DNA from: Paracoccaceae bacterium
Lineage (GTDB): Bacteria; Pseudomonadota; Alphaproteobacteria; Rhodobacterales; Rhodobacteraceae
NCBI GenBank assembly: GCA_024226455.1
Contig: JAAELR010000099.1
Coordinates: forward strand, 1-64,000
DNA: 64,000 nt
Direction of reading: 5' to 3'
Part shown: positions 7,479 through 64,000 of the stretch, in pieces
Position numbering within the stretch: the first letter of the stretch is position 1
How the letters are laid out: the number at the start of each line of letters is the position of its first letter
Made by a program: the position numbers and the translations under genes
Notes under the pieces: generated by a model
Databases searched by the model: none
What the model was told of the DNA's origin: nothing
What the model saw: the letters and a program-made list of their open reading frames with translations, nothing else

Positions 7479-7481
7479 CCC

Positions 7482-46128: not shown

Positions 46129-46254
46129 ACCAATCCGGACAATCGAGATCATATTCAGTCGTGATAGGTGTGCAGAAGCGATTGACCTGAGTGGGGCCGA
46201 GCGCGACGCGGCCCACTTGTGGCATCGACTTCCCAAGTTCCTAGTCTGGCTCGA

Positions 46255-46900: not shown

Positions 46901-46956
46901 GCGCTTTGGGTCAGGGCGTGACGGATGCCGGCGCGTTGGCGGCTGTGCCAGAGGCC

Positions 46957-48045
46957 TTAGGCGATGGTGACGTTTGGGAAGGCCCGGCGGTGAAACCGGC
47001 TGCTGAGGCAGCCTGTATAGGCGCCGAGCCCCTGGAATTCGAGCAGTTCACCAACGCGCGGGACGCGGCACAGTGGCAAACGGTAGAACGGGGCGAATTC
47101 GCAGGTCGCATCCACAAACACAACTGTCGGCATTTCGCCGGTGTCACCGCGGAGATGGGCATCGAGCGAGTACAGCGGTTCGCGCCCGGCGACGGTTACA
47201 GCGCTGATCGCAGAGGGGTGGGCACCCGGCTTTGTCCCGATATTGAGTTCAAGCGCGACGACATGTTCGTGCGCTGCGGCGCGGACTTGCAGAACTCGGG
47301 TTTGCAGAGACCCCGCCCGTTCGACCAGCGCCCTGCCGGGTTCGGCCCAGACCCGGATCGAATGCCGGGCGCGCAGACAGCCCAGCCGCTCAGTGACGGT
47401 GCGGTAAAACCGTTCAAGATCGAACTTCAGGGCCAGATGCGGAGGCAGGGTATTGCGATAGCCGCCGCCGATATTCAGAATCGGCGACGTGGTGCCCTGC
47501 AGCCGGTCAAGAACGGCCCCGGCCCGGTCGAGCACCCGTTCGAGCAGTTTCGGGCGGTAATTGCGACTCAGGTGAAACGAGACCCCGTCGATCTGGGCAA
47601 GAACACCGCCGCTTTCGGCGACCCAGGCATCGAGGGTGTCGGGTGACATCCCCCAGCCGATGCTTGTGCTGTCGAGATCCTGGACGGCGATGCGCAGCAG
47701 CCTGACCGCCGACGGCGCATGGCACAGCAGGTCGGCGTGTTCCTCGGGGCAATCGAAAGCAAAGGCGCGGCAGCCCTTGGCATACATGTCGGCGATCAGG
47801 TCGGGGCCTTTCATCGGCAGCCCACAAATGATGTCCTGCGCCCCGACACCGATGTCCAGCAGTGCCTTGTTTTCTTCGGCGCTGGCAACCTCGAATCCCA
47901 GCCCGTGGGCGGCCAGTTCACCCAGCACCAGCGGTTCGGCGCAGGCCTTGGCCGCGTAGAAAAGCCTGATCCCCGGCAGGCGCGCCTGCAGTGCGGCAAC
48001 GTCTGCGCGCAGCGTCGCCCGGTCGTAGATGAGCCTGGCCGGCAT
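46957..48045 (-). CDS. PLP-dependent type III decarboxylase (LysA/ODC fold; BtrK-like role possible)
   Basis: A 362-residue alanine-racemase-fold decarboxylase. The PLP lysine is K33 (FYAAKACAEP), the PLP phosphate loop is the NIGGGYR region, and the acceptor-side cysteine is C315 (DATCEFAPFYRLPL). The tail GAYTGCLSSRFHRRAFPNV is typical of ornithine/diaminopimelate decarboxylases. In butirosin synthesis a homologous enzyme (BtrK) decarboxylates glutamyl-ACP. The presence here of a carrier-like gene and a BtrH-like gene makes an analogous use possible, but a free amino acid substrate is equally allowed by the sequence. It is the last gene of the minus-strand cluster, 19 bases after the SPASM gene. 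Confidence 0.85.
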   Translation of the reverse strand: MPARLIYDRATLRADVAALQARLPGIRLFYAAKACAEPLVLGELAAHGLGFEVASAEENKALLDIGVGAQDIICGLPMKGPDLIADMYAKGCRAFAFDCPEEHADLLCHAPSAVRLLRIAVQDLDSTSIGWGMSPDTLDAWVAESGGVLAQIDGVSFHLSRNYRPKLLERVLDRAGAVLDRLQGTTSPILNIGGGYRNTLPPHLALKFDLERFYRTVTERLGCLRARHSIRVWAEPGRALVERAGSLQTRVLQVRAAAHEHVVALELNIGTKPGAHPSAISAVTVAGREPLYSLDAHLRGDTGEMPTVVFVDATCEFAPFYRLPLCRVPRVGELLEFQGLGAYTGCLSSRFHRRAFPNVTIA

Positions 48046-48064
48046 GTGTCAGGGTAACTTGCTG

Positions 48065-49525
48065 TCAGGAGTAGATTTCATATTTGCCTTCCTGCGCAAA
48101 GGTCTTGACGGCGTTGCGCGCTGCAGAATGCGAGTTGAACAGCTCGCAGCGTGTCTTGCCCTCGATTGTGTTGTAATACGGGCATTTCAGGCCAAAGCAC
48201 AGCGGTTGCAGGACGCAGTCCTTGCAATAGCCGGGCGGTTCGATGGTGTTCCAGTCCTGGAGATTGCTGGCATTTTCGACCAGCGCGCCCTCCTGGGTCA
48301 GATCGCCGAGAAAGGTGACGTGTTTGTCGTTCATGCACATGTCGCATTTGTAGAACCGGCCATCGGAATTGACGAAATACGTGTTCTTCTGGCGCGATTT
48401 GCACATCAGGTCGCCGGGGCCATCGACGCGCAGAGAATTGAGCCGGATGTCACGGTCGATTGCGGCATCGAACATCGAATCCACCACGTCTTCGGTCTTG
48501 TCTAGATACTTTTCGGACATCTCGTCGGCACGTTTGCCGTCATGTTCCTCGACGCCCTGAATATAGAGCTGAAAGCGCCAGTCGTCGCCGAATTCACTGC
48601 GGTAGAAGTCAAGAAACTCGTCGAGATAGGGCTGAGTTTCCTTGGTCACGTTCAGGCGAACGATGAATTCAAAGCGCCCGCGCACCTGATCGCAGATGTC
48701 GCGCAGGTTTTGCAGAATCCGGTCATAGGTCCCGCGTTTGGCGAACTGGAGCAGTTCTTTACCCAGAGCCTCGGGGTTTTCCCTAGCGAGAGATTCGGCG
48801 CGGCGGCCGCTTTTGAGGGGGCGGTTGCGGTCGTGCAGGGCCTGAGGCCCGTCAAGCGTGACCTGAAAGAAGCGAGTGTGGTATTTCAGCAGGAATTCGA
48901 AACGCTCGACGGTCAGCATGGTGCCGTTGGTGGTCAGCGAGCAAAAGTAGGGAGTTTTCTGCGATTTGCAGATTTCGTCGATCCGGCGCGACAGGTTCTG
49001 CATGACGGGGTAGGCCATCATCGGTTCTCCGCCAAACCATTCGATATTCAACGCCGAGAACGAGGGCAGTTGCGCCTCGATATATTGCAGGAGCCGTTCC
49101 TGCGCCTCTGCGGGCATCGCGTCGTTCGAGTCCTTGGTATCCTCCCAGCAGTACACGCATTTCAGGTTGCACTGGTATGTCGGGATGATGGTCAGTGTCA
49201 GCGTGTCTTCCTGACGGGTTTCGAAGTCGATCTTCTTTTGCGTGATGAGCGCGGATTCGTCGGTATCCGAAGGGATCAGGCAGCCGGCCCGCAGCAACGG
49301 TTCAAGCAGAGGTTCATGGGCATGGGCGGCGGGGTCGTCAAGGATAGCGTCGATCAGCGCTGCCTTGTCCTGCGGCACCAGAAACCCGGTTTCACGCAGC
49401 AGGTTGTGCACGATGGTGTGGGTTGATTTGAAACCGGTTATTATGTTGTATCGCGACTTCTTGAGCTGGGTCAGAGCGGCGGTGTTCAATGGTTCGGGCA
49501 GGGGAAAGGGTGCGGTATGGTTCAT
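48065..49525 (-). CDS. Radical SAM protein with SPASM domain (peptide-maturase-like)
   Basis: A 486-residue enzyme. The N-terminal ~100 residues (LKKSRYNIITGFKSTHTIVH) resemble the leader regions of radical SAM peptide maturases. The radical SAM cluster is bound by the CxxxCxxC in YQCNLKCVYCWED (near residues 119-126), followed by WFGGEPMM and TTNGTM. A cysteine-rich C-terminal SPASM domain (YKCDMCMNDKHVTFLGDL, CKDCVLQPLCFGLKCPYYN) would hold two more 4Fe-4S clusters. Known SPASM enzymes cross-link peptides, oxidise sulfatase cysteines or dehydrogenate aminocyclitols (BtrN). Its ATG overlaps the stop of the preceding radical SAM gene (ATGA), so the two are coupled. Confidence 0.9.
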   Translation of the reverse strand: MNHTAPFPLPEPLNTAALTQLKKSRYNIITGFKSTHTIVHNLLRETGFLVPQDKAALIDAILDDPAAHAHEPLLEPLLRAGCLIPSDTDESALITQKKIDFETRQEDTLTLTIIPTYQCNLKCVYCWEDTKDSNDAMPAEAQERLLQYIEAQLPSFSALNIEWFGGEPMMAYPVMQNLSRRIDEICKSQKTPYFCSLTTNGTMLTVERFEFLLKYHTRFFQVTLDGPQALHDRNRPLKSGRRAESLARENPEALGKELLQFAKRGTYDRILQNLRDICDQVRGRFEFIVRLNVTKETQPYLDEFLDFYRSEFGDDWRFQLYIQGVEEHDGKRADEMSEKYLDKTEDVVDSMFDAAIDRDIRLNSLRVDGPGDLMCKSRQKNTYFVNSDGRFYKCDMCMNDKHVTFLGDLTQEGALVENASNLQDWNTIEPPGYCKDCVLQPLCFGLKCPYYNTIEGKTRCELFNSHSAARNAVKTFAQEGKYEIYS

Positions 49526-51141
49526 GAGTCTGCCTTCTTTCTGAATGCTAGGCCAGCGATCTTGCCCAACTGGTCGTCGTCGGGGAACGTGCTGTCGTTC
49601 TGCAGCATCGCCGTGACCAGTTCGAGAAGTGTTTCTTCGCCTTCGCCCAGGACAACCAGGTCAATGCTTTGGTCTTCGAGGACCCGTTCGCAGGCGGTGG
49701 TCGGATGTGCCCCGCCAACGATGATCGGAGCGGTAACGCCATTGCCGCGCAGGTGGGCGGTCAGTTCGTGCAGGAAGTCGCGGTAATACGTCATGCTGCG
49801 AAAGCCGATCAGTGCCGGGTCGTATTCTTCGACGATCTTGAGCAATTCGTCGTGGCTGTCGAAATCCGCGTAGGATTTGATGACCTTGCATTGCACGCGG
49901 CCGGGCAGCGCGCGATGCAGATGAGTGGCCAGATACATCAGACCGATCGGTGGGTGCAAAAAGCCTTCCAGCGCGCCTTCGTCCCTGTCGGCGTAGTGCC
50001 GTGTTGCGTCAATTAGGAGTACCTTCATACCTTGGTCACGCAGCGGATAGAGCGGTTTGAAATGCCGGGTCATCTTGGCGTGCAGGTCGGGCACGGCGAC
50101 GGCGCTTTCGGCGACGCATTCCGTTGACGGCAGTTCGTTCTCGGCGATATTGAAATGCCGCAGGAGCTGGGGAAGCGTCGTCATCTTTTGCTGCAGGAAT
50201 CCGGAGTAGTAGTTCAGGAGTTCGCTTTCGGTCATGATCTTCATCTGTCCGGGCAATGTGGCGACAAGCCGGTCCTTTCGCATCCAGTAACGCGACAGAA
50301 ATTTCATCCGCAGTTTGGACACGAAAGCGGGATCCTTGAAGGGAGTGGTTTCGGGGATTTCGTGTACGGCGGAATCTTCTGATCGCAGGATCGATTCACG
50401 GCTCATCCCTGTTTCGAGCGCCAGGTCGACCAGTTCCGTGCCGGGATAGAGATGCACAACGAAGAATTCGGGGAAATGTATCCATTTGGTGTTCATGACG
50501 AAATCAAGTGTCTGGTGGGCTTCTTCCTCGGTTTCGGTCGGAAAGCCGATCATGAAGTAAAGCCCGGTAATGACATCCGGGTGCGCCGTGCAGAGGTAAT
50601 CTAGCGCCTCGCGCAGTCGGTCCAGCTTGAGCTTTTTCTTGATCAGCTGTTGCAGCCGGGGTGACCCGGTGTCGAGCGCCAGCGGCATATAGACCGTGCC
50701 CGCCTTGACCATCAGGTCGATATAGTCCGGGGTCAGCAGGTCGCCGCGCAGCCCGTTGGAAAAGAACAGATCAATGTCGAGGCCGGACTGGATGATGAGA
50801 TTGAAGAAACGCTCGCTGTTCTTGCGATTGACGTTGAAGATGTCGTCGACAAACCCGAAACGGCGGACACCCATGTCGGCATAGAGTTTGATTTCCTCAA
50901 GCAGGCTTTCGGCGGAGCGATAGTGATGGGTTTTCCAGGTGATGTGGCAATACGTGCAGCGCCACGGACACCCGCGTGTGCCCTGCACGGTGATCGCGTG
51001 GCGCACGGCGGTTTCACTGGGAAAGAGACTGTAGCGATCATAGTCGATCAGACTCCGATCAGGAGCCGGAAGCGTGTCGAGATCGCGGATTTGTGGCCTC
51101 GGCATCGTTCTGCAAATACTTGTCTCATCAAAATCTTTCAC
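49522..51141 (-). CDS. Radical SAM protein with C-terminal cobalamin-binding domain (permuted order)
   Basis: A 539-residue protein. It opens with the linker that normally follows a B12 domain (PRPQIRDLDTLPAPDRSLID). The radical SAM core follows with CxxxCxxC in RGCPWRCTYCHITW (near residue 58), DDIFNVNRKNSERFF and LYFMIGFPTETEEEA. Only from about residue 370 comes a B12-binding Rossmann domain (MKVLLIDATRHYADR, LHPPIGLMYLATHLHRAL, PIIVGGAHPTTACERVL, VVLGEGEETLLELV), ending IAGLAFRKK, where the usual protein would pass into the linker. BchE-type proteins have the B12 domain first. The family methylates or rearranges unactivated carbons. The canonical DxHxxG is not seen. There is one open frame, with no sign of a frameshift. 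Confidence 0.85.
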   Translation of the reverse strand: MKDFDETSICRTMPRPQIRDLDTLPAPDRSLIDYDRYSLFPSETAVRHAITVQGTRGCPWRCTYCHITWKTHHYRSAESLLEEIKLYADMGVRRFGFVDDIFNVNRKNSERFFNLIIQSGLDIDLFFSNGLRGDLLTPDYIDLMVKAGTVYMPLALDTGSPRLQQLIKKKLKLDRLREALDYLCTAHPDVITGLYFMIGFPTETEEEAHQTLDFVMNTKWIHFPEFFVVHLYPGTELVDLALETGMSRESILRSEDSAVHEIPETTPFKDPAFVSKLRMKFLSRYWMRKDRLVATLPGQMKIMTESELLNYYSGFLQQKMTTLPQLLRHFNIAENELPSTECVAESAVAVPDLHAKMTRHFKPLYPLRDQGMKVLLIDATRHYADRDEGALEGFLHPPIGLMYLATHLHRALPGRVQCKVIKSYADFDSHDELLKIVEEYDPALIGFRSMTYYRDFLHELTAHLRGNGVTAPIIVGGAHPTTACERVLEDQSIDLVVLGEGEETLLELVTAMLQNDSTFPDDDQLGKIAGLAFRKKADS

Positions 51142-51203
51142 GAACTGACCTCCAAAAGAATAACTCCGTCAATACCGTAAGCATCCGAAACGGATACCCA
51201 ACT

Positions 51204-54200
51204 TCAGAAAAATCCGACCCGGCACAGCTCATCCAGGCTTTCGACGTGTGCCTGCAGGATTTCCTCCATGTCTGCGTCGCTATGCATCACTGAGAAATGC
51301 GCCAGTTTTGCATCTCCTATGTATATCCCTTTTGATCGTAAAAGGGGAGGAAGAATTTCAAAGCTCATCTCTTGGGGTTGCGTTTTATAGGTGGCGAAGC
51401 TGGCAAAAGACTGCATTTCAGCACCGATTCCGCGGTCGCGGAAATGCTGGTTGAGCCGGTCGCGAAACCGTCGCACGCGGTGTGTCGTCTCGAAAGGCAG
51501 CGCATTGCCCCCGGCGGCGAGGTGGCGCAGCGCGGCGCGCGCCGCGGCCATGGCAAGCGGATGGCGCACAAATGTGCCCGCCAGAAAGGTACGGGGGACA
51601 CCGGGGGCGGAGGTATCGCCGAACTGCCACGGGCCGCCGTCGATGTGGTCCAGCAGCGCCGCCTTGCCCGCGACGGCGCCGATGGGCAGCCCGCCTCCGA
51701 TCACCTTTCCGTAGGTTGCAAGATCGGCGGGCACGTCAAACAGCGCCTGCGCGCCGCCCGGGTGGGTGCGAAATCCGGTCACGATCTCGTCAAAGATCAG
51801 GACAACGCCACGCGCACTACACAGGGTTCTGAGATTGTGAAGAAAGGCGATGGGAATATTGGCGGGGTTACGGGTTTGCACCGGTTCGACCAGCACGGCG
51901 GCGATGTCGTCTGACTGCGCGGCGATGTGGTCCAGCGCGGCCTGCGACCCATAGTCGAACAGCCGCATGTCGGCGAGGGCCGAGGCGGGAATGCCCTGTG
52001 CGATGGGCATTGCTGTGCCGTCTTCGCGATCACGCAGAGGCCGTCCCAGGACCGCGTCGAAGCCGCCGTGATACGACCCCGAAAATGCAACGATCCTGTC
52101 GCGGCCCGTGGCGGTACGGGCGATGCGGCAGGCGGCGGCCACTGCCTCTGACCCTGTGTTGCAGAAGGCCACGCGTTCGGCCCCGGTCAGGGCGCTCAAG
52201 TGTTCGGCGACCTCGACGGCCAGCGTGGTCTGCGGGCCGAGTTCATAGCCCCTGTCGAGCTGGGCCCGAATAGCCTCGGTAACATAGGTCGGTGAGTGCC
52301 CGAGGTAGTTGGCGCCAAAGCCCATGACCATGTCGAGATAGCTGTTGCCGTCGAGGTCACTGAACGAGGCACCCGCGGATTTGTCCGCGACAATCGGGTA
52401 ACAGATGTCTTTCCAGCGTAGGTCAAAGCCGGAAATGGTGCGAGGGTCAGCCATGACGGACCGCGCCCGGATCGCCATCGCGCGGGACGCATCGGTGCGG
52501 GCACGGTAGCGTGTCTGCAAGTCATCGAGGAACTGGCGCTGTTCCCCGGTGAGGCTGCGCGCGGTGTCACGGGTGGCGGTGAGCGGCACCAGGTAGGGGC
52601 CTGAGGCGGTGTCGGTCGGGCTGGGTGTTTCCGATGTCGTGCGGGGAACGGTGGCGTGCGGCATCTGTTCCAGCTTTTGCAGAAGGTGCGCCGGTGATGT
52701 TCCGGGGTCTGCAAGGTCGAGCAACGTCAGCTCTAGGCCGGTTTCGCGGCGCAGCCGTCCGGCCAGTTGCGACATGGTCAGCGAGTCAAAGCCGAGATCG
52801 AGGAAGTCTCGGGGCATGTCCGCAGGTGTGAGCGGGTCAATCGCGACTTCGTTGATGAGCGCGATGAGCCTGTCGCGTGCGTTGGTCTGCGTCGGCCCGG
52901 CAGGGGCGGGCGTTTGCGCGGGGGGAGCGACCCAAAGCCGCCTGCGCTGAAACGGAGTTTCGGGCCGTGCATCGGGTTCCTGGCCGAGCCGCGTCCGGTG
53001 CGCGACCGATTGCGGCACCGCCGCGAGCACCGCGTGAACATTGGTGCCGCCGACGCCGAATGAGCTTACCCCCGCTATCCGGCGATGAACCGGCAATTGT
53101 GTGGTCCGGGTCCGGATACGGAAAGGGCCGGAGGTGAGGTCGATCCCGGTGCCCGGAGATTCAAACCCTGTGAGGCCGGGCACGAGGCCGGTGTTCACGA
53201 CGTGGATCGCATTGATCAGGCCGACGACGCCGGACGCCACATCGAGGTGGCCAACGCTGGCCTTGGCCGTGCCGAGCGCGATCTCGGTATCTTTTGCAGC
53301 GCCAAAAACGCTTTGCAGTGCGCGGAATTCCACCGCGTCGCCGATGGCGGTTCCGGTGCCGTGCGCTTCGATATAACCGAGGTCGCCCGGCGCCACCCCG
53401 GCAATGTCGAGCGCGTCGGCGATCACTTCGGCCTGGCCCTGCATCGAGGGGGCGACATACCCCGCCTTGCGCGCGCCATCGTTGTTCACTGCGGACCCCA
53501 GGATCACGGCATGAATCGGGTCGCCGTCTTTGAGGGCATCGGCATAGTGTTTCAGCGCGACAACGCCACCGCCGCTGCCAAAGACGGTCCCGTCGGCGCG
53601 CGCATCAAAGGGTCGGCAAACACCTTGCCGGGACAGGATGCTGCCGTCTTTCCACAGGTAGCCGACCCGCGCGGGAAGCCGCAGCGACACCGCACCCGCC
53701 AGCGCAACATCGCATTCGCCTGACATCAGGCTCTGGATTGCCAGATGCACCGCGAGGAGCGAGGTCGAGCAACACGACTGGACAGTGACGGCAGGTCCGG
53801 TCAGGCCCAGGCAATAGGCGGCTGTGAGGGTGGCGTGGTCCTTGTTACCGCCGAGTTCCAGGTCGTCCTCGGTGAATGTGTGCGCCACCTCGGGATTGCC
53901 GAGAAGGTTCTGCACGAGGTAGGCGTTTGCCGATGTTCCGCCGAACACGCCGACGCGGGCGTTTTGCCGTTTGCCGGGCTGGCCGGCCTGTTCGAGCGCC
54001 TCCCAGCAGCATTCCAGGAACAGACGTTGTTGCGGGTCCATGAAGCGCGCGCGCCTGTCATCTAGGCCAAAGAACCGTGGGTCGAAGAGGCCGATGTCGC
54101 CGCTCAGGAATGCGCCTGCCGGGACGTAGTCGCGGTGCGCCAGCAGGTCGCCGGGAACTCTGTCGCCCAGTTCCCGGGGGTCGAGGATTTCGAAGGCGGC

Positions 54201-54314
54201 GCGTTTTTCCAACACAGAGCGCCAGAATTCGCCGGGGGTATCGCCGCCGGGCACGCACAGCGCCATTGCGACAACGGCGATGGCATTTGACATGTCCCGT
54301 TCTGTTTCTGGCAT
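51204..54314 (-). CDS. Hybrid PKS-aminotransferase: ketosynthase, carrier domain, class III aminotransferase
   Basis: A 1036-residue megasynthase subunit. The ketosynthase (about 8-430) has active-site Cys near 182 in VQSCCSTSLLAVH, with EAHGTGTAIGDAVEF and GHLDVASGVVG. The carrier domain (about 475-550) has attachment serine near 508 in DLGFDSLTMSQLA. The class III aminotransferase (about 610-1036) has RVAFCNTGSEAVAAACRIAR, DEIVTGFRTHPGG and PLP lysine near 869 in TYGKVIGGGLPIGA. No acyltransferase or reductase is present. Mycosubtilin/iturin synthases use a similar PKS-linked aminotransferase to make a beta-amino acyl chain. The same chemistry on a tethered beta-keto acyl group is inferred. 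AGGG precedes ATG 54314; ATG 54293 is an alternative. Confidence 0.92.
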   Translation of the reverse strand: MPETERDMSNAIAVVAMALCVPGGDTPGEFWRSVLEKRAAFEILDPRELGDRVPGDLLAHRDYVPAGAFLSGDIGLFDPRFFGLDDRRARFMDPQQRLFLECCWEALEQAGQPGKRQNARVGVFGGTSANAYLVQNLLGNPEVAHTFTEDDLELGGNKDHATLTAAYCLGLTGPAVTVQSCCSTSLLAVHLAIQSLMSGECDVALAGAVSLRLPARVGYLWKDGSILSRQGVCRPFDARADGTVFGSGGGVVALKHYADALKDGDPIHAVILGSAVNNDGARKAGYVAPSMQGQAEVIADALDIAGVAPGDLGYIEAHGTGTAIGDAVEFRALQSVFGAAKDTEIALGTAKASVGHLDVASGVVGLINAIHVVNTGLVPGLTGFESPGTGIDLTSGPFRIRTRTTQLPVHRRIAGVSSFGVGGTNVHAVLAAVPQSVAHRTRLGQEPDARPETPFQRRRLWVAPPAQTPAPAGPTQTNARDRLIALINEVAIDPLTPADMPRDFLDLGFDSLTMSQLAGRLRRETGLELTLLDLADPGTSPAHLLQKLEQMPHATVPRTTSETPSPTDTASGPYLVPLTATRDTARSLTGEQRQFLDDLQTRYRARTDASRAMAIRARSVMADPRTISGFDLRWKDICYPIVADKSAGASFSDLDGNSYLDMVMGFGANYLGHSPTYVTEAIRAQLDRGYELGPQTTLAVEVAEHLSALTGAERVAFCNTGSEAVAAACRIARTATGRDRIVAFSGSYHGGFDAVLGRPLRDREDGTAMPIAQGIPASALADMRLFDYGSQAALDHIAAQSDDIAAVLVEPVQTRNPANIPIAFLHNLRTLCSARGVVLIFDEIVTGFRTHPGGAQALFDVPADLATYGKVIGGGLPIGAVAGKAALLDHIDGGPWQFGDTSAPGVPRTFLAGTFVRHPLAMAAARAALRHLAAGGNALPFETTHRVRRFRDRLNQHFRDRGIGAEMQSFASFATYKTQPQEMSFEILPPLLRSKGIYIGDAKLAHFSVMHSDADMEEILQAHVESLDELCRVGFF

Positions 54315-54322
54315 CGATATCC

Positions 54323-54607
54323 CTATTCGTAATACATCGCGTCGGGCAGTCCCGGAACAAAACCCATTTCTGCGAAAAGGTTGCCGGTGTCTGGCTCACG
54401 GGTGTCGGGATTGGTGAAGCATTCGGCCAGTCCGGCTATGGTCATCCCCCCCCATATCAGTTCGGGTGCCTTGCGGCCCGTCCGCAGCGCGACCTGCCGT
54501 ACATCGGCAGCGCTGATGCCCTGTTCTGCAAAGGCCACATCCCTCGCGATCATGTCCGGGCGGACACCGAGGATTGTGGCCAGTTCCTGTGTCAGGTCGT
54601 CTTCCAT
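54323..54607 (-). CDS. Small acyl-carrier-like protein with displaced serine
   Basis: 94 residues. The first ~65 resemble a phosphopantetheine carrier (LTQELATILGVRPDMIARDV, AFAEQGISAADVRQVALRTG, MTIAGLAECF). Where GxDSL is expected it reads GISAA, so the attachment serine is shifted by one residue or lost. A ~25-residue tail (TGNLFAEMGFVPGLPDAMYY) follows. It lies 8 bases before the KS-ACP-aminotransferase gene and 5 bases after the BtrH-like gene. It could be a free-standing carrier, a docking protein or a non-functional carrier relative. Confidence 0.65.
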   Translation of the reverse strand: MEDDLTQELATILGVRPDMIARDVAFAEQGISAADVRQVALRTGRKAPELIWGGMTIAGLAECFTNPDTREPDTGNLFAEMGFVPGLPDAMYYE

Positions 54608-54612
54608 CCGGC

Positions 54613-55638
54613 CTAGCCTTTTTCCAGCGCGTGGCGCAGCGCCGCGATCAGATCCGGCGTCTGTTCTTCGCACGCGAAGACAGTCGCAAGCAGCTGGGGC
54701 AGCTCTGCCAGAGCTTTGAAATCGTCATCCGAGACGCTGGTTTCCATTGATAGGTTGAGCAGGAACCAGCGTTTGTAGAGCCATGCCATTTGCCTTTGCA
54801 TCGCGGTGACCTCTTTGTGTGCGCCCGCCGTCAGGGACGGGTCCAGTGCAGCAAGAAACCGCAAGTTGTTTTTATAGGTGCACATCAGAGTCCAGAATCC
54901 CGGGACAATAAAAGGAGCATCCACGCGTTTTAGGAAATCGACAATGTCGGACGAAAAAACCTTCAATGCCGAAAGGCCTTTATCATTGGTGTCGCTATTG
55001 AGATTGTCGATTGATGCGGAGAGATCCGCGAGGATCGAGGGGAGTGAAAGCGCGTTGTCAATTGCTGCGTCGCGGCTGACATGCATCAGATAGAACGGAC
55101 GGCCACGGTGTCGGCGATCCTCGAAACAGGCGAGATATGAAGCGAGCGGCAATTCCGACCAGCCAAAGACCGCTTCGAGAACTGAGAGAGTGTCGGGTGC
55201 GTGGCCCTTGCCGCCCAGGATCATCATGTGCCCGTCGCGGGTGTTGCCGCAGAACGGGTGCCCCGGCATGAAAAAAAGATCAATCTCGGAAATGACCGGT
55301 ATGTCCTGTGCGGCAAACCTATCGATGTCGGCAAGCAGGGTTTCGAAGTCGTCATACCCCTTGTGTGACAGTGAAATGCCGTAACAATGACTCAAACGTT
55401 GCAGAAATTCTGGTTTTTCCAGCGGCAGGGACCGGCTGAAGGAGCTGTTGAGAACTGGCGCAGCGGCAAAATCCAGACCGGAAGCGGCGCGGTTGTATGC
55501 AAAACTGCAATTGTAAAACAGCCGATTGAAATTCGGAACCTCAAGGCGGCTCCGCGCGATCGCTTCGCAGGAGCCCATAAGACAATTCGGACTGAAGTCT
55601 GTGATCCTGAGCGGTGCTGCAACAAGGGTATTCACCAC
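54613..55638 (-). CDS. BtrH-like protein (tentative acyltransferase/peptidase fold)
   Basis: A 341-residue protein starting at GTG 55638 (or 55635) behind GAAAG. The N-terminal cysteine region (TDFSPNCLMGSCEAIARSRL) and the segment EIDLFFMPGHPFCGN with a following GHMMILGG recall the BtrH N-terminal family, whose founder transfers an acyl group from ACP to an aminoglycoside using a cysteine/histidine site. The resemblance is partial and judged by eye. The C-terminal half is helical with no recognised family. Its position directly before the carrier-like gene supports a role in handling carrier-bound acyl groups. It is first in the six-gene minus-strand run. Confidence 0.5.
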   Translation of the reverse strand: MVNTLVAAPLRITDFSPNCLMGSCEAIARSRLEVPNFNRLFYNCSFAYNRAASGLDFAAAPVLNSSFSRSLPLEKPEFLQRLSHCYGISLSHKGYDDFETLLADIDRFAAQDIPVISEIDLFFMPGHPFCGNTRDGHMMILGGKGHAPDTLSVLEAVFGWSELPLASYLACFEDRRHRGRPFYLMHVSRDAAIDNALSLPSILADLSASIDNLNSDTNDKGLSALKVFSSDIVDFLKRVDAPFIVPGFWTLMCTYKNNLRFLAALDPSLTAGAHKEVTAMQRQMAWLYKRWFLLNLSMETSVSDDDFKALAELPQLLATVFACEEQTPDLIAALRHALEKG

Positions 55639-55732
55639 AATATTCTTTCTGCAACACGTCCCGGGAACGCGCCGCCCCAAGCCAGCACAATGCCCGACCG
55701 GCCCCTTTGATCAGCAGAAATACTGAACAGAG

Positions 55733-55826: not shown

Positions 55827-55902
55827 AAGGAATATCTGTAAACTACTCATGGGTCCACACATAAAGTTAAACGTCATACTAAGGCCTCAGGAGGAATAAA
55901 CC

Positions 55903-56217
55903 ATGAAATTTTTGATTTTGACAGATGACGCAGGTGTCGATACGGAACGGGCATTTGTGGATTTAGAAGCCAACGAACGCTGGCTGAACGACGGCCGCGA
56001 AAAAGGTGAAATCGAAGCGATATATTCGCTGGCCGGTGCACATGGTGTCGCGATGATCGTCGATGTGAAAAGCCCCGAAGCGCTGGACGAACTGATGGCG
56101 CGCCGTCCCGCCTGTGCCGAACAATCGCTTCGCGTGCTTACTTTGGCTGACCACGGCGCGGCCTCCAAGACATTGCGAGCCACCTACAAGAAGCGGCTTG
56201 CCGAAATTAAGCGCTGA
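55903..56217 (+). CDS. YciI-like small protein
   Basis: A 104-residue protein of the YciI/ferredoxin-like dimeric fold: FLILTDDAGVDTERAFVDLE at the start and ALDELMARRPACAEQSLRVL later. The function of such proteins is mostly unknown; some act as small lyases or isomerases in natural product clusters. A strong GGAGGAATAAACC precedes the ATG. It is divergent from the BtrH-like gene and shares its control region. After it, bases 56228-56265 hold two GC-rich hairpins (CGCGCCA/TGGCGCG and GCGGGC/GCCCGC) without a T-run. Confidence 0.75.
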   Translation: MKFLILTDDAGVDTERAFVDLEANERWLNDGREKGEIEAIYSLAGAHGVAMIVDVKSPEALDELMARRPACAEQSLRVLTLADHGAASKTLRATYKKRLAEIKR

Positions 56218-56319
56218 CTCTTTGCCACGCGCCAGGCGTGTTTTGGCGCGCGGGCTTTTGCCCGCAGGTCAAGCGCCATGGAACGCCGAAAACGCGGCGA
56301 CAAACGACGTGGAGCCTGA

Positions 56320-57207
56320 ATGAGCGGCCTGCAACAGCTTGAGACGGTGCGGGATGTGCGCGCGGATGTGCGCCAGTTTGCAGGTTTGAATGACCTGATC
56401 GACGATGTTTTCGGCGTCAGCTTTGCCAGTTGGGACGAAGCCGGTTTCTGGGACCCGCGGTATGTGCCGACCACGCTGTTTGACGATGAGGTCGCGGTTG
56501 CGAACGCCAGCATCTATTCGCTTGATATGGTGATTGACGGTCGGCCTTGCAGGGTTGCGCAGGTCTGCACCTGCGCAACACGTGAAGGCTGGCGCGATCA
56601 GGGGCTTGGGAGCGGTCTGCTTGGTGATGCGATCGCGCGGGCCCGGACCGATCATGATCTGGTGTTTGTGATGTCGACGAATCGCGCGATCCCATTTTAC
56701 CTGCGGCAGGGGTTCGAGCCGGTACTGGAACAGATCCCAACGCTGCGGACTGGTCGGGTGCGACCCAAACTAGGGCTCATCAAGCTCGATATCGAAAACA
56801 GCGACGATTTGGAGCTGATTTCGCAGATTGCGGGGCAACGGTCGCCGGTTTCCCGGCTTTGCGGTGTCCTGAGTTTGGGGTTGTTCATGTTTCATGTGCT
56901 GAATGTGCTGCCCGGGTGTCTGTACTACTGCGCTGATCTGTCGTGTCTTGTTCTTATGAAACGGCGGGGCAAGCGACTGCGGGTGTTCGATATCGTGACT
57001 CCAAAGATGCCGCGGTTTTCCGAGCTGCATCCCTATCTGAGCGAAGGCCGCAGGGATCTGGTTGAATTCAGGTTTCTGCCGGATCAGCTGGGCGTCAGCG
57101 GTCTGCGCTGGCGGCGGAGCCGCGAGAACAACCTGCACATCCTGCCAGGCTCTGCCTCTGCGCTGGACATGCGGCGGGTCCTGATCCCGTTCACCGCGCA
57201 GGCCTGA
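56320..57207 (+). CDS. GNAT family N-acetyltransferase
   Basis: A 295-residue protein. The acetyl-CoA-binding motif is seen at CTCATREGWRDQGLGSGLL (about residues 85-105) followed by the typical NRAIPFYLRQGFEPVLEQIP. The C-terminal ~140 residues have no recognised family and include a hydrophobic, cysteine-containing stretch (LFMFHVLNVLPGCLYYCADL) that could be buried or membrane-associated. It is convergent with the NRPS-PKS gene and probably tailors or detoxifies the product by N-acylation; this is inferred from position. Confidence 0.82.
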   Translation: MSGLQQLETVRDVRADVRQFAGLNDLIDDVFGVSFASWDEAGFWDPRYVPTTLFDDEVAVANASIYSLDMVIDGRPCRVAQVCTCATREGWRDQGLGSGLLGDAIARARTDHDLVFVMSTNRAIPFYLRQGFEPVLEQIPTLRTGRVRPKLGLIKLDIENSDDLELISQIAGQRSPVSRLCGVLSLGLFMFHVLNVLPGCLYYCADLSCLVLMKRRGKRLRVFDIVTPKMPRFSELHPYLSEGRRDLVEFRFLPDQLGVSGLRWRRSRENNLHILPGSASALDMRRVLIPFTAQA

Positions 57208-57218
57208 GCGCGAGCAAA

Positions 57219-60200
57219 TCAGCTGGTTTTCACCGGTTTGGCGCTGCGCGCTCGCTGCTGACGGCGTCGGGCGCGCCGTCGTTCGGCAAGACGGTCGTCT
57301 GTGGCCAGGGGGACGGATGTGTCGTTTTCCAACTGCCGGACAAGCCCGGCAACTGTCGGCGCTGCAAAGAAGTCCGGTGGCGCGAAGGTTGACCCGAACG
57401 CCGCATTCACCTGTCGCACCAGTTCGATCGCGCGCAGGGAATCGCCGCCTTGGTCGAAGAACGTGGCATCCGGATCGGGCGCGCTGCCCAGAATTGCCTG
57501 CCAGATGGCCGACACCCGGTCCTCCGCGGAGGTGCTGTCGTTGGCATGTGTTGCTTGTTGGTGCGGTGTGTCATGCGGGTTGGGCTGTGTATGTCCGATC
57601 TCTTGAGGGGTCGCCCGCGATACCAGCAGGCGCCGCTCAGCGATGTGGCACAGTGCAAGGTTCTGCACCGGCACGACCTGTTGAGGAGAGAGCGCGCGTG
57701 CGTCGCGCAATTTGGTGGCCTCGGTGTCAGGACGGGTGGGGTCGGACGCGGCGTCGCCCCAGGAGGTCCAGCCGTCCCATGCGACAGACAGATATGGGCG
57801 GGTTGAACAATGCGCCTGCACCAGCCCGTCCAGCATGGCGTGGGCGGCGGCATAGGCAGCAAGCCCGTGCCCGCCCAACACGACCGAAAGCGAGGAAACG
57901 AAGTACCCCAGTTCGAGCGGGCGATCCTGAAACAGGTCATGCAGAACCATGGCACCTTGGACTTTTGGGGCCATGATACGTTGCCAGTCCTGCAGGCTGG
58001 ATTCCGCTATCCAACGGGTGGCGTTCCGCGCTGGAACGCCCGCGCAGTGCAGGAATGACCGGGCCGGGCCGTACATCGCATCGGCGTGCGTGACCGCCCC
58101 GGCCATCTGTTGGCGGCTGTTCACATCGGCCTGCACCACGTCGAAGGCTATGCCGTCACGCTGCCATTCCTGCAGCCTGGCAAAGCGCGGGTTGCCCTCC
58201 CGGGCCAGCCTTGGCCATTCGTCGCGCGGCGGTACCATAGAGGATGTCGTGAGGATCAGCGGCGTGCCGGACGCCTCCCATAATGCGCGGCCCAGTGTCA
58301 TGCCGATGGGCCCAAGCCCGCCTGTCACCAGACAGGGGGCCCCGGGCGTCAGTGTCAGCGGTGTTCCCGGATCGGTGATTGCGTTGAAATGGCGGGTCCA
58401 GAGATTGTTCCCGCGCAGCGCCAGCAGGGTCGTTTCGCGGGGCTGTGCACGCATGTCGGCTAAGTGGCCGGTGGACATGGAATCAAGATCGAGTACGCGT
58501 GCGGCAATCCTTGGGAACTCTTGTTGCAGGACCGGTACCAGACCGACATAACCTGTCTGCAACGGAACGATAGCCTCTTCGCCGGTCACGTCACACGCGC
58601 CGTTGGTGACAATATCCACGGGCAGCATCGCAGTGCCCGGCAGGCCGCGCAACAGTTCGACAAAGGCATGCTGGCCCGAAACGGCGGCGTGAAAATCCGA
58701 GGGTTCGTGTTCTTCGAATCCCCAGCCACAAAGGACAGCATCGGGGCAATGCCCGTCAGCCGCGATCATGGCGGCGATTTCGCTCCCGGCCCCGGCGTTG
58801 CCGAGGTCGATGCGATAGTCACGCGGGCCGACCCGCGTGGTCGTGTCTGCCGGTGTGACCGTGATCTGTGAGCAGCGCTGTTGCTGGTCAAGCAGTCTGA
58901 GCAGCAGGCCGCGCCGGTCAGCCAGTACCAGACAGGTCTTGCCGGTCGCATCGGACTTGCGCGCAGTGGCCCCAAGCCGGTTGCCACGCTGCCAGCTTTC
59001 GCGGAACAGCCGTGGCGACGACAGGTGCGCGGCCTTGTGGCCCTTGGGTTGGGCGCTGGTTTCGGTTTCGCCGGTCCACCAGCAATGTCGGCGTGTCAGC
59101 GGGTGGCTGGGCAGGGCCATGCGGCGGCCCCGGTTTGCGAAAGGCACGTCCGGCCATTGAATGTCGACGCCGCGCGCCCAGCAGTCGGCCAGAACACGCA
59201 GGAACCAGCCGGCGCTGTGTTCGGTCGCGCAGCACGGGTCTGTGACGGTTTTTGCGTTCACAAGCGGTGATCCCTTGCACAGCCAGAGCACCACGGTCGC
59301 AGCGTCGTCGTGCCCGACGGGGGCTGTCTGGTGCTCCGGGGCATCTGCGATCCGGCGCAGGGAATCGCGCAGTGTCATGGTGCCCGCAACCACATCCCGT
59401 GCCAGCGGCGACAGGCGGCCGCTCGGGATGATCTGACAGGTTCCGCCGCTGGCGCGTTTCCACACCTGCAGTGCCGCCACCAGTGCCACCAATCTGGCAG
59501 CGGAGGCATCGGTGCCGGGGTCAAGTGCCGTCAATACAGTTTCGGGCATCGGCGCATTGTCAGTACCATCAAGGCATTGCGCGATCAGTTCAACCCCGGT
59601 AATCGCACGGTCGGCAAGCCACCGCAGATCGGCGCTGTCGTCCAGTGCTATGGTCAGGCTCTTTTCGGCAGGGGCGGCAGGGTCGATATGGTCCAGCGCG
59701 CGCGCGAATTCGGCGGGGCTGCGGCCAAGAACGGCGTAACGCCAGCCATAGGTGCGCCGACCCAACTGCAATGTCGTTGCGATGTCCGGGGTGTTCATGT
59801 CCGACGTGATGGCCAATTCGTCGGCTGTTGCGCGCGCCAGTGTTTGGAGTGCATTGCATGAGCGCGCGCTGAGCGGGGCGATCTGCCAATCGGGGGGGAG
59901 TTCGGGATGCGTGTTTTGGGGCGATGCGCTGCGGTGCGGGGGTTCTTCGAGAACAACGTGGGCGTTGCTGCCGCCAAGCCCGAAGGAGCTGACGCCGGCA
60001 CGTCGTTTGCCGGGCATCGGCCAAGGCAGGGCGGTGGTGTTGACGAGAAACCGCGCCTGATCCAGCCCCAGAGCTGGATTTGCCTGTTTGAAGGATGGAT
60101 GCGGGGGGATGGTGCCGTGTTTGACGGTCAGGATCGTCTTGATCAGCCCGATCACGCCGGCAGCGGCGGCAAGGTGGCCGACGTTGGCCTTGACTGCGCC

Positions 60201-63200
60201 GAGGACCCGGTGGTGCAGCGCGCCGGTGTCACTACCAAGGGCGTCTTTCAGCGCTGCCACCTCGACTGCGTCGCCCAGAGCGGTGCCGGTGCCGTGTGCC
60301 TCGACAAAGCCGATATCGCGGGCCGTGAGGCCCGCGTCGGCGAGCGCCGCACGCAAAAGCGCCACCTGACCGTCGACGCCGGGCGCGGCGAAACCGGCAC
60401 GCGATGCGCCGTCATTGTTGGTTGCCGATCCCTGAATGACCGCGTCGATGTGGTCACCACTTGACAGAGCGACGTCGAGCTGGCGAAGCGCCACGAGACC
60501 GAGGCCATCGGCAAACGGGGTGCCTGCGGCAGCGGCGTCAAAGGCGCGGCAATTTCCGTCGGGCGAGAACATCAGGTTGGCCTCGTGCCTGTATCCGGGC
60601 AGCGGCGTGACATGCACCGAAACGCCGCCCGCCAACGCGATGTCGCATTCCCCGGACTGCAGGCTGCGAATGGCCTGATGCACGGCAACGAGTGAGGAGG
60701 AGCATCCGGTTTGCACCGCCATGCTTGGCCCGGTCAGGCCAAGTGTGTAGGAAATTCGGGCGGGCAGGAAATCCTTGTCGTTGGCCAGCATGATCTCTGT
60801 CCCGCTTTGCGAGGCCAGATCACACGTGTCTTCGCGCAGCACGTTCAGCAGGTAGGTGTTCATTGCGCTGGCCGCAAACAGACCGATGCGCGGCTTGGTC
60901 GGTCCGTCATACCCGATCCGCTCGAGCAGCTCCCATGTCGATTCGAGCATGAGGCGGTGCTGCGGGTCCATCCGCGCGGCCTCGCGCTGCGAAATGCCAA
61001 AAAATTCGGGATCGAACAGGGACCGATCCGGCAACGCGGTGTCAACCGGCACAAATGATGAATCGGCGATCAGGTCGTCGGGGACGCCGGCCTGACGAAG
61101 CTCATGTGGCCGCAGCCGCGCCAGACCCCTGCGGCCATTCACAAGCGCAGACCAGAACGCATCAGGTGTGGCGGCACCCTGGAGGCGGAGCGACATGCCG
61201 ATGACCGCGATCGGCCTGTTGGTGGCGCGCCGGGGTGGCGTGACGCTGACCGGGTGCGGTGTATCGGCAGTGGCCACGGTCTTTTCGACAAAGGCGCGCA
61301 GACTGCGCAGGGTTGTGTGGCGGAACAGGTCGCTTGGCAGCAATGCACCGAGTCCGGGTTTGCGCGCCAGCGCTGCATGCACCTGCATAAGCGAAACCGA
61401 TGTTCCGCCGAGATCGAAAAAATTGGCATTCTGCGGGATGTCGTCCCGTCCGAGCGCGTCGCGCCAAAGCGCATGCAAATCGGAGGCAAGTCCAAGGGCG
61501 CTGTTGTCATGGGGCGGGGCCGGACCAGTGGGCGGCGCGGACGCCGCATCTGCGACCATGGCAGCGCGGTCGAGTTTGCCATGCCGGGTCCGCGCCAGCG
61601 CGGGGACAAGACTAATGCGCTCCGGGATCATGTACCCCGGCAGGAGCGCGCGCAGTGCCACACGCACCGCGTCAGGGTCGGTGGCATCTGGCCGAGTCGG
61701 GACGACAAAGGCCCAAAGCCCGGCGTCGCTGACGGTGGCGGCGCAGTGCCTGACACCATCAAGCGACAGCAACGCGTTTTCGACCTCGACCAGTTCGACG
61801 CGATGGCCGCGCAGCTTCACCATCGTGTCGCGGCGACCGCGGTAGTGGATGCTCTGACCATCCCAATGGCCCATATCCCCGGTGCGATACCAACGTGACA
61901 GGCCGCTGCTGTCCGGGCTGTCACAAAATCGCGCTGCGTTCTGGTCCGGCAGACCAAGGTAGCGCTGCGCCAACGATGGGCCGCGAAGTTCGATTTCGCC
62001 TTCGACAAAATCGGGAAGCGCCCGCCCGTAGGGGTCGATGATCCGGATCGCCGCAGACCCCAGAGGCACGCCAAGCGGCACTGGCCCGGTGCCCGGCAGA
62101 TCCTTGGTCACGTGCTGTGCGGTCGAAAAAACAGCGGCTTCGGCAACGCCGTACAGGTTCCAGAGTGTCAGCCTGTTGTTGACGGCCCGTCGTGCGGTTT
62201 CAACGGGCAACGCTTCGCCGCACAGGACAAGTTTGCACAGGGTCTTTGGCACCTGTCCGCCGCGTCTGTCGATTTCACCCAGGAGCAGCGCCAACGCGCT
62301 TGGGGTCTGCGACAGGATCGTGACCTGACTGCGGTCGATCAAATCGAATAGGGCATCCGGTTGATTTCGCACGGCTTCCGGAACCACGATCAGGGTTCCG
62401 CCATTGGAAAGCGCGCTCCAGATTTCCCAGACCGAAAAATCGAAACTGGCCTCGTGGAACCAGACCGAACGGTCAGCGGCGCGGATGTCGAGCCGCGTTC
62501 GCACGGCTTGCAGCATCGCCGTCAACGCCGCGTGGCTGACCACCACGCCCTTGGGGGTGCCGGTCGAGCCGGAGGTGAAGACGGCGTAGGCCGCGCTGTC
62601 AGCGGCCGGATAGGGCAGCACAACCGGCGCTGTCATGCTGACATCCGGAGAGACAAGAGTGACGGTTTCGGGAAGCGTTGGCGGATCGTCCGGGTCAGAA
62701 ATGGCGAGCTTGACTGACCCGGTTTCCACAATATCGGCGGCCCGGGCGGACGGCGTTGCGGGATGGATCGGGACATAGGCCCCGCCGGCCCGCATCACCG
62801 CCAGCATCGCAACAACTGCGGTTGTCGAGGGGCGCATGGAGACCGCGACCCGGTCACCCTGGCCGACGCCAAGCGCGACAAGCTGCGCCGCGAGAGCAGT
62901 GGAGCGGTCGTCAAGTTCGCCATAGCTCACATGGTCATCACCGCAGATCACAGCGTCTTTGAGCCGGTCGCTGGACACGGCAGCCGCGAAAAGTTCGGGG
63001 AAACTCTGCTGCAGTTGTGTCCGGGACATACCCTCGGGCGGCAGGATCATCGCACCCTGCTGCAGTCCGGCCAGATCCGCATCGGCAAGGCGATCATCCG
63101 GATGTCTGAGCCAATGGCCCAACTGCTGCCTGAATGCATCGCTCAGACATTGGGCCAGAGATTCGGAAACATGGCGGGTGTCGGTCTTGAGGACAAACCG

Positions 63201-64000
63201 GAAAATGTCACCGCTTTGGACTGCTTCGAGCAGCGCATCGACTTGGCCCTGTTGCTGCGCAAGTGTCCAAGGAGCGAGCGCAAGCCCAGCCCAAGACGCG
63301 CCTGTCGTGTTGTCCGAACCCGGCGTCAGGTAGAGATCGGACCACGGTTGCCAGATTTTCGCGGTCTGGAATGCCACAATGCTCTGGAAGAGCGGGTGGC
63401 GGCTGTCGCCCCCGGTCGCACCGGCCTCGACAAGGATTTCGGCAAAAGGCAGGGCGCGATGATCGAGGCCATCGAGCAGGCTGTCGCGAGCCGCGAGCAC
63501 CATGGTTCTGAAACTGCTCTGCGCATTTCGGTACAGCCGGACCGGCAGCATGTTGATCTGGTAGCCGACAATCGACCGCGTCTGTTCATCGCGCAACGAG
63601 ACCGGAGTGCCGATGACGCAATCGTCTTGCGCGCTGTATCTGGCGACGACCCCGGCCCAGACGGCCAGAAAGACCGCCAGAGGCGTGACCGAATTGTCGC
63701 GGCAGTATTTGAGAAGCAGGGCGCTGTCCTGCTCTGCGAGGTTGAACTGTATCGCAGCCGCCGGGGTCTTGGCCGGTCGCGAATCCGATGGCCACGACAC
63801 CGGAGGGGGGCAGTCGCGCAGCAGGTCACGCCAGAATAGACGGTCGGCGGTGCATTGGCCGCCTGACAAATAGGCCTGTTCGCGCATCTGCAGCAGGTGC
63901 TGACCTTTGGGGGGCTGTGTCGCGGCGGTTTCATTGGCGGGTTGCGCGCGATACGTGGCCTCCAGATCGCGCATCAGCAGTTCAAGCGAGGTGAAATCCC
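57219..64000 (-). CDS. Hybrid NRPS-PKS, partial: C-A-PCP-KS-KR-ACP without acyltransferase
   Basis: The frame runs off the right edge; at least 2260 residues are visible (numbering from Met 63974). C domain, C-terminal half, to about 300 (GTPVSLRDEQTRSIVGYQIN, DHRALPFAEILVE). Adenylation domain about 310-760 (FTSGSTGTPKGVVVSH, FDFSVWEIW, YRTGDMGHW). Carrier with serine near 856 (DLGGTSVSL). Ketosynthase about 920-1340 (QTGCSSSLVAVH, EAHGTGTALGDA). Then a ~280-residue spacer that keeps only the end of an AT-linker (RGVDIQWPDVPF) with no GHSxG. Ketoreductase (VTGGLGPIG; SSLSVV and AAYAAAHAMLDG for the Ser/Tyr site). Final ACP near 2178 (DQGGDSLRAIELV). There is no thioesterase. The missing AT implies a trans-acting one. 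Confidence 0.95.
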   Translation of the reverse strand, partial: DFTSLELLMRDLEATYRAQPANETAATQPPKGQHLLQMREQAYLSGGQCTADRLFWRDLLRDCPPPVSWPSDSRPAKTPAAAIQFNLAEQDSALLLKYCRDNSVTPLAVFLAVWAGVVARYSAQDDCVIGTPVSLRDEQTRSIVGYQINMLPVRLYRNAQSSFRTMVLAARDSLLDGLDHRALPFAEILVEAGATGGDSRHPLFQSIVAFQTAKIWQPWSDLYLTPGSDNTTGASWAGLALAPWTLAQQQGQVDALLEAVQSGDIFRFVLKTDTRHVSESLAQCLSDAFRQQLGHWLRHPDDRLADADLAGLQQGAMILPPEGMSRTQLQQSFPELFAAAVSSDRLKDAVICGDDHVSYGELDDRSTALAAQLVALGVGQGDRVAVSMRPSTTAVVAMLAVMRAGGAYVPIHPATPSARAADIVETGSVKLAISDPDDPPTLPETVTLVSPDVSMTAPVVLPYPAADSAAYAVFTSGSTGTPKGVVVSHAALTAMLQAVRTRLDIRAADRSVWFHEASFDFSVWEIWSALSNGGTLIVVPEAVRNQPDALFDLIDRSQVTILSQTPSALALLLGEIDRRGGQVPKTLCKLVLCGEALPVETARRAVNNRLTLWNLYGVAEAAVFSTAQHVTKDLPGTGPVPLGVPLGSAAIRIIDPYGRALPDFVEGEIELRGPSLAQRYLGLPDQNAARFCDSPDSSGLSRWYRTGDMGHWDGQSIHYRGRRDTMVKLRGHRVELVEVENALLSLDGVRHCAATVSDAGLWAFVVPTRPDATDPDAVRVALRALLPGYMIPERISLVPALARTRHGKLDRAAMVADAASAPPTGPAPPHDNSALGLASDLHALWRDALGRDDIPQNANFFDLGGTSVSLMQVHAALARKPGLGALLPSDLFRHTTLRSLRAFVEKTVATADTPHPVSVTPPRRATNRPIAVIGMSLRLQGAATPDAFWSALVNGRRGLARLRPHELRQAGVPDDLIADSSFVPVDTALPDRSLFDPEFFGISQREAARMDPQHRLMLESTWELLERIGYDGPTKPRIGLFAASAMNTYLLNVLREDTCDLASQSGTEIMLANDKDFLPARISYTLGLTGPSMAVQTGCSSSLVAVHQAIRSLQSGECDIALAGGVSVHVTPLPGYRHEANLMFSPDGNCRAFDAAAAGTPFADGLGLVALRQLDVALSSGDHIDAVIQGSATNNDGASRAGFAAPGVDGQVALLRAALADAGLTARDIGFVEAHGTGTALGDAVEVAALKDALGSDTGALHHRVLGAVKANVGHLAAAAGVIGLIKTILTVKHGTIPPHPSFKQANPALGLDQARFLVNTTALPWPMPGKRRAGVSSFGLGGSNAHVVLEEPPHRSASPQNTHPELPPDWQIAPLSARSCNALQTLARATADELAITSDMNTPDIATTLQLGRRTYGWRYAVLGRSPAEFARALDHIDPAAPAEKSLTIALDDSADLRWLADRAITGVELIAQCLDGTDNAPMPETVLTALDPGTDASAARLVALVAALQVWKRASGGTCQIIPSGRLSPLARDVVAGTMTLRDSLRRIADAPEHQTAPVGHDDAATVVLWLCKGSPLVNAKTVTDPCCATEHSAGWFLRVLADCWARGVDIQWPDVPFANRGRRMALPSHPLTRRHCWWTGETETSAQPKGHKAAHLSSPRLFRESWQRGNRLGATARKSDATGKTCLVLADRRGLLLRLLDQQQRCSQITVTPADTTTRVGPRDYRIDLGNAGAGSEIAAMIAADGHCPDAVLCGWGFEEHEPSDFHAAVSGQHAFVELLRGLPGTAMLPVDIVTNGACDVTGEEAIVPLQTGYVGLVPVLQQEFPRIAARVLDLDSMSTGHLADMRAQPRETTLLALRGNNLWTRHFNAITDPGTPLTLTPGAPCLVTGGLGPIGMTLGRALWEASGTPLILTTSSMVPPRDEWPRLAREGNPRFARLQEWQRDGIAFDVVQADVNSRQQMAGAVTHADAMYGPARSFLHCAGVPARNATRWIAESSLQDWQRIMAPKVQGAMVLHDLFQDRPLELGYFVSSLSVVLGGHGLAAYAAAHAMLDGLVQAHCSTRPYLSVAWDGWTSWGDAASDPTRPDTEATKLRDARALSPQQVVPVQNLALCHIAERRLLVSRATPQEIGHTQPNPHDTPHQQATHANDSTSAEDRVSAIWQAILGSAPDPDATFFDQGGDSLRAIELVRQVNAAFGSTFAPPDFFAAPTVAGLVRQLENDTSVPLATDDRLAERRRARRRQQRARSAKPVKTS

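Follow-up and report, generated by a model that had tools for sequence, protein, structure and literature searches.

A hybrid NRPS-PKS gene cluster from a Paracoccaceae bacterium encodes a circularly permuted cobalamin radical SAM protein

Cobalamin-binding radical S-adenosylmethionine (SAM) enzymes are recognised with their B12 domain in two positions only, N-terminal in class 1 and C-terminal in class 2 (PMC13331322). According to this 2025 review a C-terminal B12 domain is known from a single characterised cobalamin radical SAM enzyme, Mmp10; it is grouped with the DUF512 proteins, and the B12 domain of both is of a different type (PMC13331322). Here we describe a hybrid nonribosomal peptide synthetase-polyketide synthase (NRPS-PKS) cluster on contig C99 (73,801 bases) of the 4.36 Mb draft genome of a Paracoccaceae bacterium, kin of the marine roseobacters, in which a cobalamin radical SAM protein, P0009, carries its two halves in swapped order. 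The window analysed consists of bases 1-64,000 of this contig, and its positions 46,957-64,000 hold the left two thirds of the cluster, which is truncated by the window edge and extends on the contig to about 73,260 (Table 1). An earlier note on this DNA had proposed a hybrid NRPS-PKS locus that includes two radical SAM enzymes; such a locus does exist, and the collections searched contain no relative of it. It is a genuine orphan cluster that looks intact on contig C99.

P0009 is the most surprising element of the cluster. Pfam places a radical SAM domain (PF04055) at residues 54-215, with the motif CPWRCTYC at 58, and a B12 domain (PF02310, 5e-17) at 394-508, so that the earlier description of a radical SAM protein with a B12-binding domain behind it is upheld by the Pfam order as well as by swapped alignments. 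BLASTP of P0009 against eleven relatives of normal order gave two swapped matches each time. Against L066, residues 18-332 match 180-509 (33%, 4e-53) and residues 373-522 match 10-158 (34%, 2e-21). The N-terminus corresponds to the linker normally found after the B12 domain (PRPQIRDLDTLPAPDR) and the C-terminus to the segment normally preceding it (IAGLAFRK), which puts the break at the domain joint. P0009 is a true circular permutant. An assembly or frame error is ruled out by a permuted relative in another alphaproteobacterial metagenome-assembled genome, P0015, which shares the domain order of P0009 and matches it across both halves at 42% identity; its neighbours are transketolase halves and sugar-like genes. 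Nor is the permuted order a common arrangement, since the eleven relatives are normal by alignment and a twelfth (L065) by inspection. No third permutant was found, at the cut-offs used, in overlapping samples of 385 genomes of the class, 398 of the phylum and 391 of the order. The structural model of P0009 had a predicted local distance difference test (pLDDT) score of 52 overall with a better C-terminal domain, and this C-terminal part resembles the B12 domains of TokK, OxsB and mutases. As a separate observation, split transketolase genes recur as neighbours of B12 radical SAM genes at three loci that are unrelated and look like sugar clusters (L040 2202-4104, L073 1358-3127 and L075 1549-3311).

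The assembly line itself has lost most of its acyltransferases. By Pfam and an alignment of its acyltransferase (AT) stretches the megasynthase P0001 (4,149 residues) reads ketosynthase (KS)-AT-dehydratase (DH)-ketoreductase (KR)-acyl carrier protein (ACP), then condensation (C)-adenylation (A)-peptidyl carrier protein (PCP), then KS-(dead AT)-KR-ACP; Pfam gives the series KS, AT, PS-DH, KR, ACP, C, A, PCP, KS, KR, ACP, and the motifs of the KS, AT, DH, C, A and carrier domains are all present. Most of C and the following A-PCP-KS-(dead AT)-KR-ACP lie inside the window, KS-AT-DH-KR-ACP and the start of C outside. Read by eye, the code of the A domain gave no substrate assignment. The C-A-PCP-KS-KR-ACP megasynthase and the KS-ACP-aminotransferase recognised earlier are both confirmed by their Pfam domains, the latter being P0010 with a class III aminotransferase. 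The AT stretches were aligned against the first AT of P0001 (AT1) and the intact AT modules of Aliiroseovarius sp. M344 and Rhizobium sp. CCGE531. AT1, which belongs to the KS that precedes the C domain, is the sole AT of the cluster and has its GQGSQ, GHSVG and AFHSH motifs intact, which we take to point to malonyl. After the second KS both linkers, KS-AT and post-AT (ALPSHPLTRRHCWW), are kept and all three AT motifs are lost, and in P0010 the AT is wholly deleted with the post-AT linker PFQRRRLW retained. The claim that neither KS has an AT beside it holds for the two KSs in the window, one with a dead and one with a deleted AT, and fails for the whole cluster, AT1 lying just outside. A cis-AT PKS has a working AT in each extension module and a trans-AT PKS a free-standing one; the cluster has one intact AT, one remnant and one deletion, and no free-standing AT was found among its genes. 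One evolutionary route suggested for algal PKSs is that AT domains are displaced in trans (PMC4661987). An AT-like protein at 40,148-41,212 (plus strand; GNSMG and GFHT by eye, no Pfam match), which adjoins an E1 dehydrogenase fusion, was considered as a trans-AT and dropped as a cluster gene, since it occurs in 19 of 80 family genomes and is thus ordinary in the family. The KS and aminotransferase of P0010 align full-length, at 37-45%, with KS-AT-ACP-aminotransferase modules of Aliiroseovarius sp. M344 (WP_260519409) and Rhizobium sp. CCGE531 (WP_120669916). Those modules have an intact AT whereas P0010 has none, and their loci contain exopolysaccharide-type genes and a phosphopantetheinyl transferase (PPTase) with no radical SAM gene annotated there.

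Outside the window the cluster continues with two carrier proteins (P0002 and P0006), an aminoacyl-tRNA synthetase (aaRS)-like ligase (P0004), an AMP-ligase (P0005) and a short-chain dehydrogenase/reductase (SDR; P0003). P0004 shows homology (1e-16) to Bll0957, an amino acid:[carrier protein] ligase that has been crystallised, has a class II aaRS-like core and, like Bll0957, a carrier gene alongside. It also retains the active-site segments PAAC, RRE and TGC, which in Bll0957 contain the zinc ligands. Its NCBIfam score of 86 of 357 bits marks it as a distant member of the family, and unlike Bll0957 it is shorter and lies next to an NRPS-PKS. Bll0957-type enzymes are reported to charge a carrier protein (PMC2922099, citing Mocibob and others). 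Of the amino-acyl polyketide-peptide product suggested earlier, the aminoacyl loading gains some support from this ligase and its adjoining carrier gene, and no structure is committed to. Ligases like Bll0957 also occur elsewhere next to a carrier gene, in biosynthetic loci of several kinds. A diiron oxygenase, a small carrier-size gene and an aaRS-like ligase recur at L052 10634-13919, L053 8884-11832 and L054 8777-10777, with a nitronate monooxygenase next in two of the three and, in one, a small gene without a name where the carrier would stand; the set could possibly serve N-oxidation of a carrier-bound amino acid. On a plasmid of Streptomyces sp. NBC_00984 (L051 9278-14147) genes for an aaRS-like ligase, a carrier, a hydroxyacyl-CoA dehydrogenase, an acyl-CoA dehydrogenase and an AT domain follow consecutively; this may be a pathway to an aminomalonyl extender in which an aaRS-like enzyme does the loading.

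From the domain content and order, the motifs, the AT decay, the ligase homology and the permutation as they can be read in the sequence, we infer substrates, trans-loading, release, radical chemistry and product as follows. We give an even chance to the view that this cluster, intact in appearance and probably acquired by horizontal transfer, builds a short amino-polyketide-peptide in the following order. P0004 would charge the discrete carrier P0006 with an amino acid and P0005 would charge the second carrier P0002 with an acid. Module 1 (KS-AT-DH-KR-ACP) would turn starter and malonate into an enoyl chain, C-A-PCP would add one amino acid, KS-KR-ACP would add a C2 unit and then reduce it, and P0010 would add a further C2 unit and aminate the beta carbon. 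Because their own ATs are dead or gone, the KS-KR-ACP module and P0010 would depend on loading in trans, for which AT1 or the cell's FabD is the simplest candidate. The chain may be released without a thioesterase, perhaps via P0012, and P0009 (by transferring a C-methyl group or forming a ring), the SPASM enzyme P0008 and the decarboxylase P0007 may modify carrier-bound or released intermediates. Module order would predict a product class of starter, enoyl C2, one amino acid, hydroxy C2 and beta-amino C2, and it is unlikely that the product, if made, is a known one. Only tentatively, and with some doubt, would we go on to see here an aaRS-like-primed hybrid line with one AT for three KSs, a third architectural class of cobalamin radical SAM proteins and a new class of beta-amino polyketide-peptide.

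The long frames and the presence of catalytic motifs mean that this gene set is not chance. Several points nevertheless weigh against the proposed assembly order. P0011 and P0012 have no firm family, the decarboxylase and the SPASM enzyme have no assigned pathway step, and loading of the modules in trans by AT1 is only inferred. The second KR has His in place of the usual Asn after the active-site Tyr, which makes its activity uncertain. Only 541 bases of sequence lie between P0006 and the end of the contig, and the cluster may thus lack some of its genes. Extending the window to the right, as the earlier note had advised, brought the AT, the carriers and the ligases but not a thioesterase, exporter, Sfp-type PPTase or free-standing trans-AT. 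A thioesterase (PF00975) is absent from the whole of contig C99, in agreement with that note, no exporter was seen in the cluster, and the single PPTase match in the genome lies at 26,011-26,277. Just upstream of P0006 (contig 73332-73586, minus strand; L009 16333-16587) there is a short frame that by eye resembles the N-terminus of an AMP-ligase and has no Pfam support.

The decarboxylase P0007 bears on the best surviving alternative, an amino-acid starter as in vicenistatin and fluvirucin or in butirosin. Here an acidic amino acid would be tethered to a carrier by its side-chain carboxyl, a pyridoxal phosphate (PLP) decarboxylase would remove the alpha-carboxyl while it is carrier-bound, and the beta- or gamma-amino acyl group would prime the PKS or be transferred by P0012. 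Adenylating enzymes, discrete carriers and a fold-III decarboxylase do co-occur in the cluster, VinN/VinL/VinO form a comparable set (PMC11284099), and BtrK works on carrier-bound glutamate (PMC7857480). P0007 is indeed a fold-III PLP decarboxylase by Pfam, structure matches and motifs, with the catalytic segments kept, but the LysA-type label once given to it does not hold: its nearest solved structures are ornithine/lysine decarboxylases (ODC/LODC; 2e-15), diaminopimelate (DAP) decarboxylase (DAPDC) follows at 9e-6 and BtrK was not matched. Judged by score against solved structures it falls outside the BtrK/DAPDC clade, in which BtrK groups (PMC7857480). Its gene also lies at the far end of the cluster among the radical SAM genes, and no discrete VinK-like transferase or ATP-grasp ligase was seen in the cluster; we regard this starter as unlikely. 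Compared with the butirosin side-chain genes (BtrI, BtrJ, BtrK and BtrH), the cluster shares a carrier protein, a fold-III decarboxylase and a possible BtrH_N-type protein, and differs in having no recognised ATP-grasp ligase or BtrG, in a decarboxylase nearer to ODC and in its weak BtrH match. The latter, the sole Pfam match of P0012, covers residues 86-161 with 13.9 of 29.7 bits, below cut-off, and the predicted structure has a pLDDT of 38; the BtrH-like label is weakened and a BtrH_N-type protein is possible. The carrier-like label of P0011 has likewise lost ground, with GISAAD where GxDSL is expected, Ala at the site of the phosphopantetheine Ser, and PP-binding matches of only E=0.13-0.22. 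On Mesorhizobium huakuii plasmid p_3 (L073 3292-9707) a pair of radical SAM genes lies together with an alanine-racemase-type gene (25% to P0007), a DUF3050 gene and a TldD-like gene. We know of no pathway with this gene set.

Less probable still is that the radical SAM pair and the decarboxylase form a separate pathway, for example of peptide or sugar modification, that merely adjoins the NRPS-PKS. The SPASM-type radical SAM enzyme announced in the earlier note is present: CxxxCxxC is intact in both P0008 and P0009, and the SPASM cysteines of P0008 run C375-X13-G-X4-C394, then C434, C437, C443, C448 and C460. P0008 best resembles maturases of ribosomally synthesized and post-translationally modified peptides (RiPPs), although distantly, with every NCBIfam RiPP maturase model far under cut-off, and P0009 has relatives in what appear to be sugar or surface loci. 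Against this, no RiPP precursor stood out among the small open reading frames at 45,400-47,000, and the genes for P0010, P0009, P0008 and P0007 form one apparent operon, all on the same strand with a gap of 62 bases, an overlap and a gap of 19 bases in turn. That the cluster is decaying and makes nothing is improbable, for the AT remnant, the AT deletion, the Ser-less carrier and the neighbouring transposase and integrase-like remnants are set against frames that are all open, one of 4,149 codons, a clean deletion in P0010 with its linker kept, and motifs retained past the lost ATs.

A horizontally acquired cluster, as in the assembly order we favour, is likely. G+C is 0.57-0.59 over parts of the locus versus 0.60-0.66 to its left. 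At the left edge (44171-45512, minus) a DUF6538 fragment of the integrase N-terminal type and a phage-type DUF2793 frame are probably a prophage or island remnant, and a transposase remnant (46241-46516, minus; PF13737, 4e-12) lies between the integrase-like fragment and the cluster. The genus is represented by a single genome. No related cluster was recognised in a contig scan with P0008, in plasmid searches with P0008, P0009, P0012, P0010, P0004 and P0007 or in genome samples; the contig scan, with P0008 alone, finds close relatives only and could miss one. P0012 had no match at E<=1e-10 in 296 family genomes and only a trivial one in 398 phylum genomes, P0009 had none in 391 order genomes, and viral and phage collections gave distant radical SAM matches only. 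None of the papers searched combined radical SAM, NRPS, PKS, cobalamin, SPASM and aminotransferase. Apart from this cluster, only contig C409 of the genome has condensation domains; there a second PKS of 2,584 residues with a condensation-domain frame behind it lies at L033 (G000:C409) 1318-10471. Among the small genes at the centre of the cluster, the GNAT protein called earlier is confirmed in P0014, and the YciI-like P0013 keeps a weak muconolactone isomerase/YciI resemblance with a sub-threshold match.

Table 1. Genes of the cluster; positions marked "contig" lie beyond the window.
Gene product	Position	Strand	Basis and remarks
P0007, alanine-racemase-fold PLP decarboxylase, closest to ODC/LODC	46,957-48,045	minus	Pfam, solved-structure matches, motifs
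P0008, radical SAM with SPASM cysteines	48,065-49,525	minus	Pfam, NCBIfam, motifs
P0009, circularly permuted cobalamin radical SAM protein	49,522-51,141	minus	PF04055, PF02310, swapped alignments, permuted relative
P0010, KS-ACP-class III aminotransferase	51,204-54,314	minus	Pfam, AT-stretch alignment, motifs
P0011, carrier-protein-like without phosphopantetheine Ser	54,323-54,607	minus	PP-binding E=0.13; frame may begin further upstream
P0012, no family, possibly BtrH_N-type transferase	54,613-55,680	minus	BtrH_N E=0.063; start codon uncertain
P0013, small, weakly muconolactone isomerase/YciI-like	55,903-56,217	plus	PF02426 1.9e-5, just under cut-off
P0014, GNAT acetyltransferase domain protein	56,320-57,207	plus	Pfam GNAT 1.5e-7; C-terminal half without assigned kind
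P0001, megasynthase	57,219-69,668 (57219..64000 in window)	minus	Pfam domains, motifs, AT-stretch alignment
P0002, ACP	contig 69,668-70,036	minus	
P0003, SDR	contig about 70,053-70,800	minus	open frame longer; match only in last 240 residues
P0005, AMP-ligase	contig 70,793-72,202	minus	
P0004, aaRS-like	contig 72,136-72,948	minus	
P0006, ACP	contig 72,954-73,259	minus	

P0009 provides a natural experiment on how B12 and radical SAM halves need to be connected in order to function. The cluster is in addition a small-scale example of cis-AT modules that have shed their ATs with a single one retained, and of an NRPS-PKS that an aaRS-derived ligase appears to supply. With class 1 (TokK, OxsB and TsrM; BchE-like) P0009 shares the radical SAM domain with its CxxxCxxC motif and the MetH-like PF02310 B12 domain, but the class 1 order, B12 N-terminal to radical SAM, is reversed in it by circular permutation. 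With class 2 (Mmp10 and the DUF512 proteins) it shares the C-terminal position of the B12 domain, which in that class is a four-stranded CFeSP-like or DUF512 domain (PMC13331322), whereas P0009 has PF02310 and no DUF512 match in Pfam. Judged by its domains, P0009 lies outside both class 1 and class 2 as defined in PMC13331322, and that review describes no C-terminal placement for this type of B12 domain.

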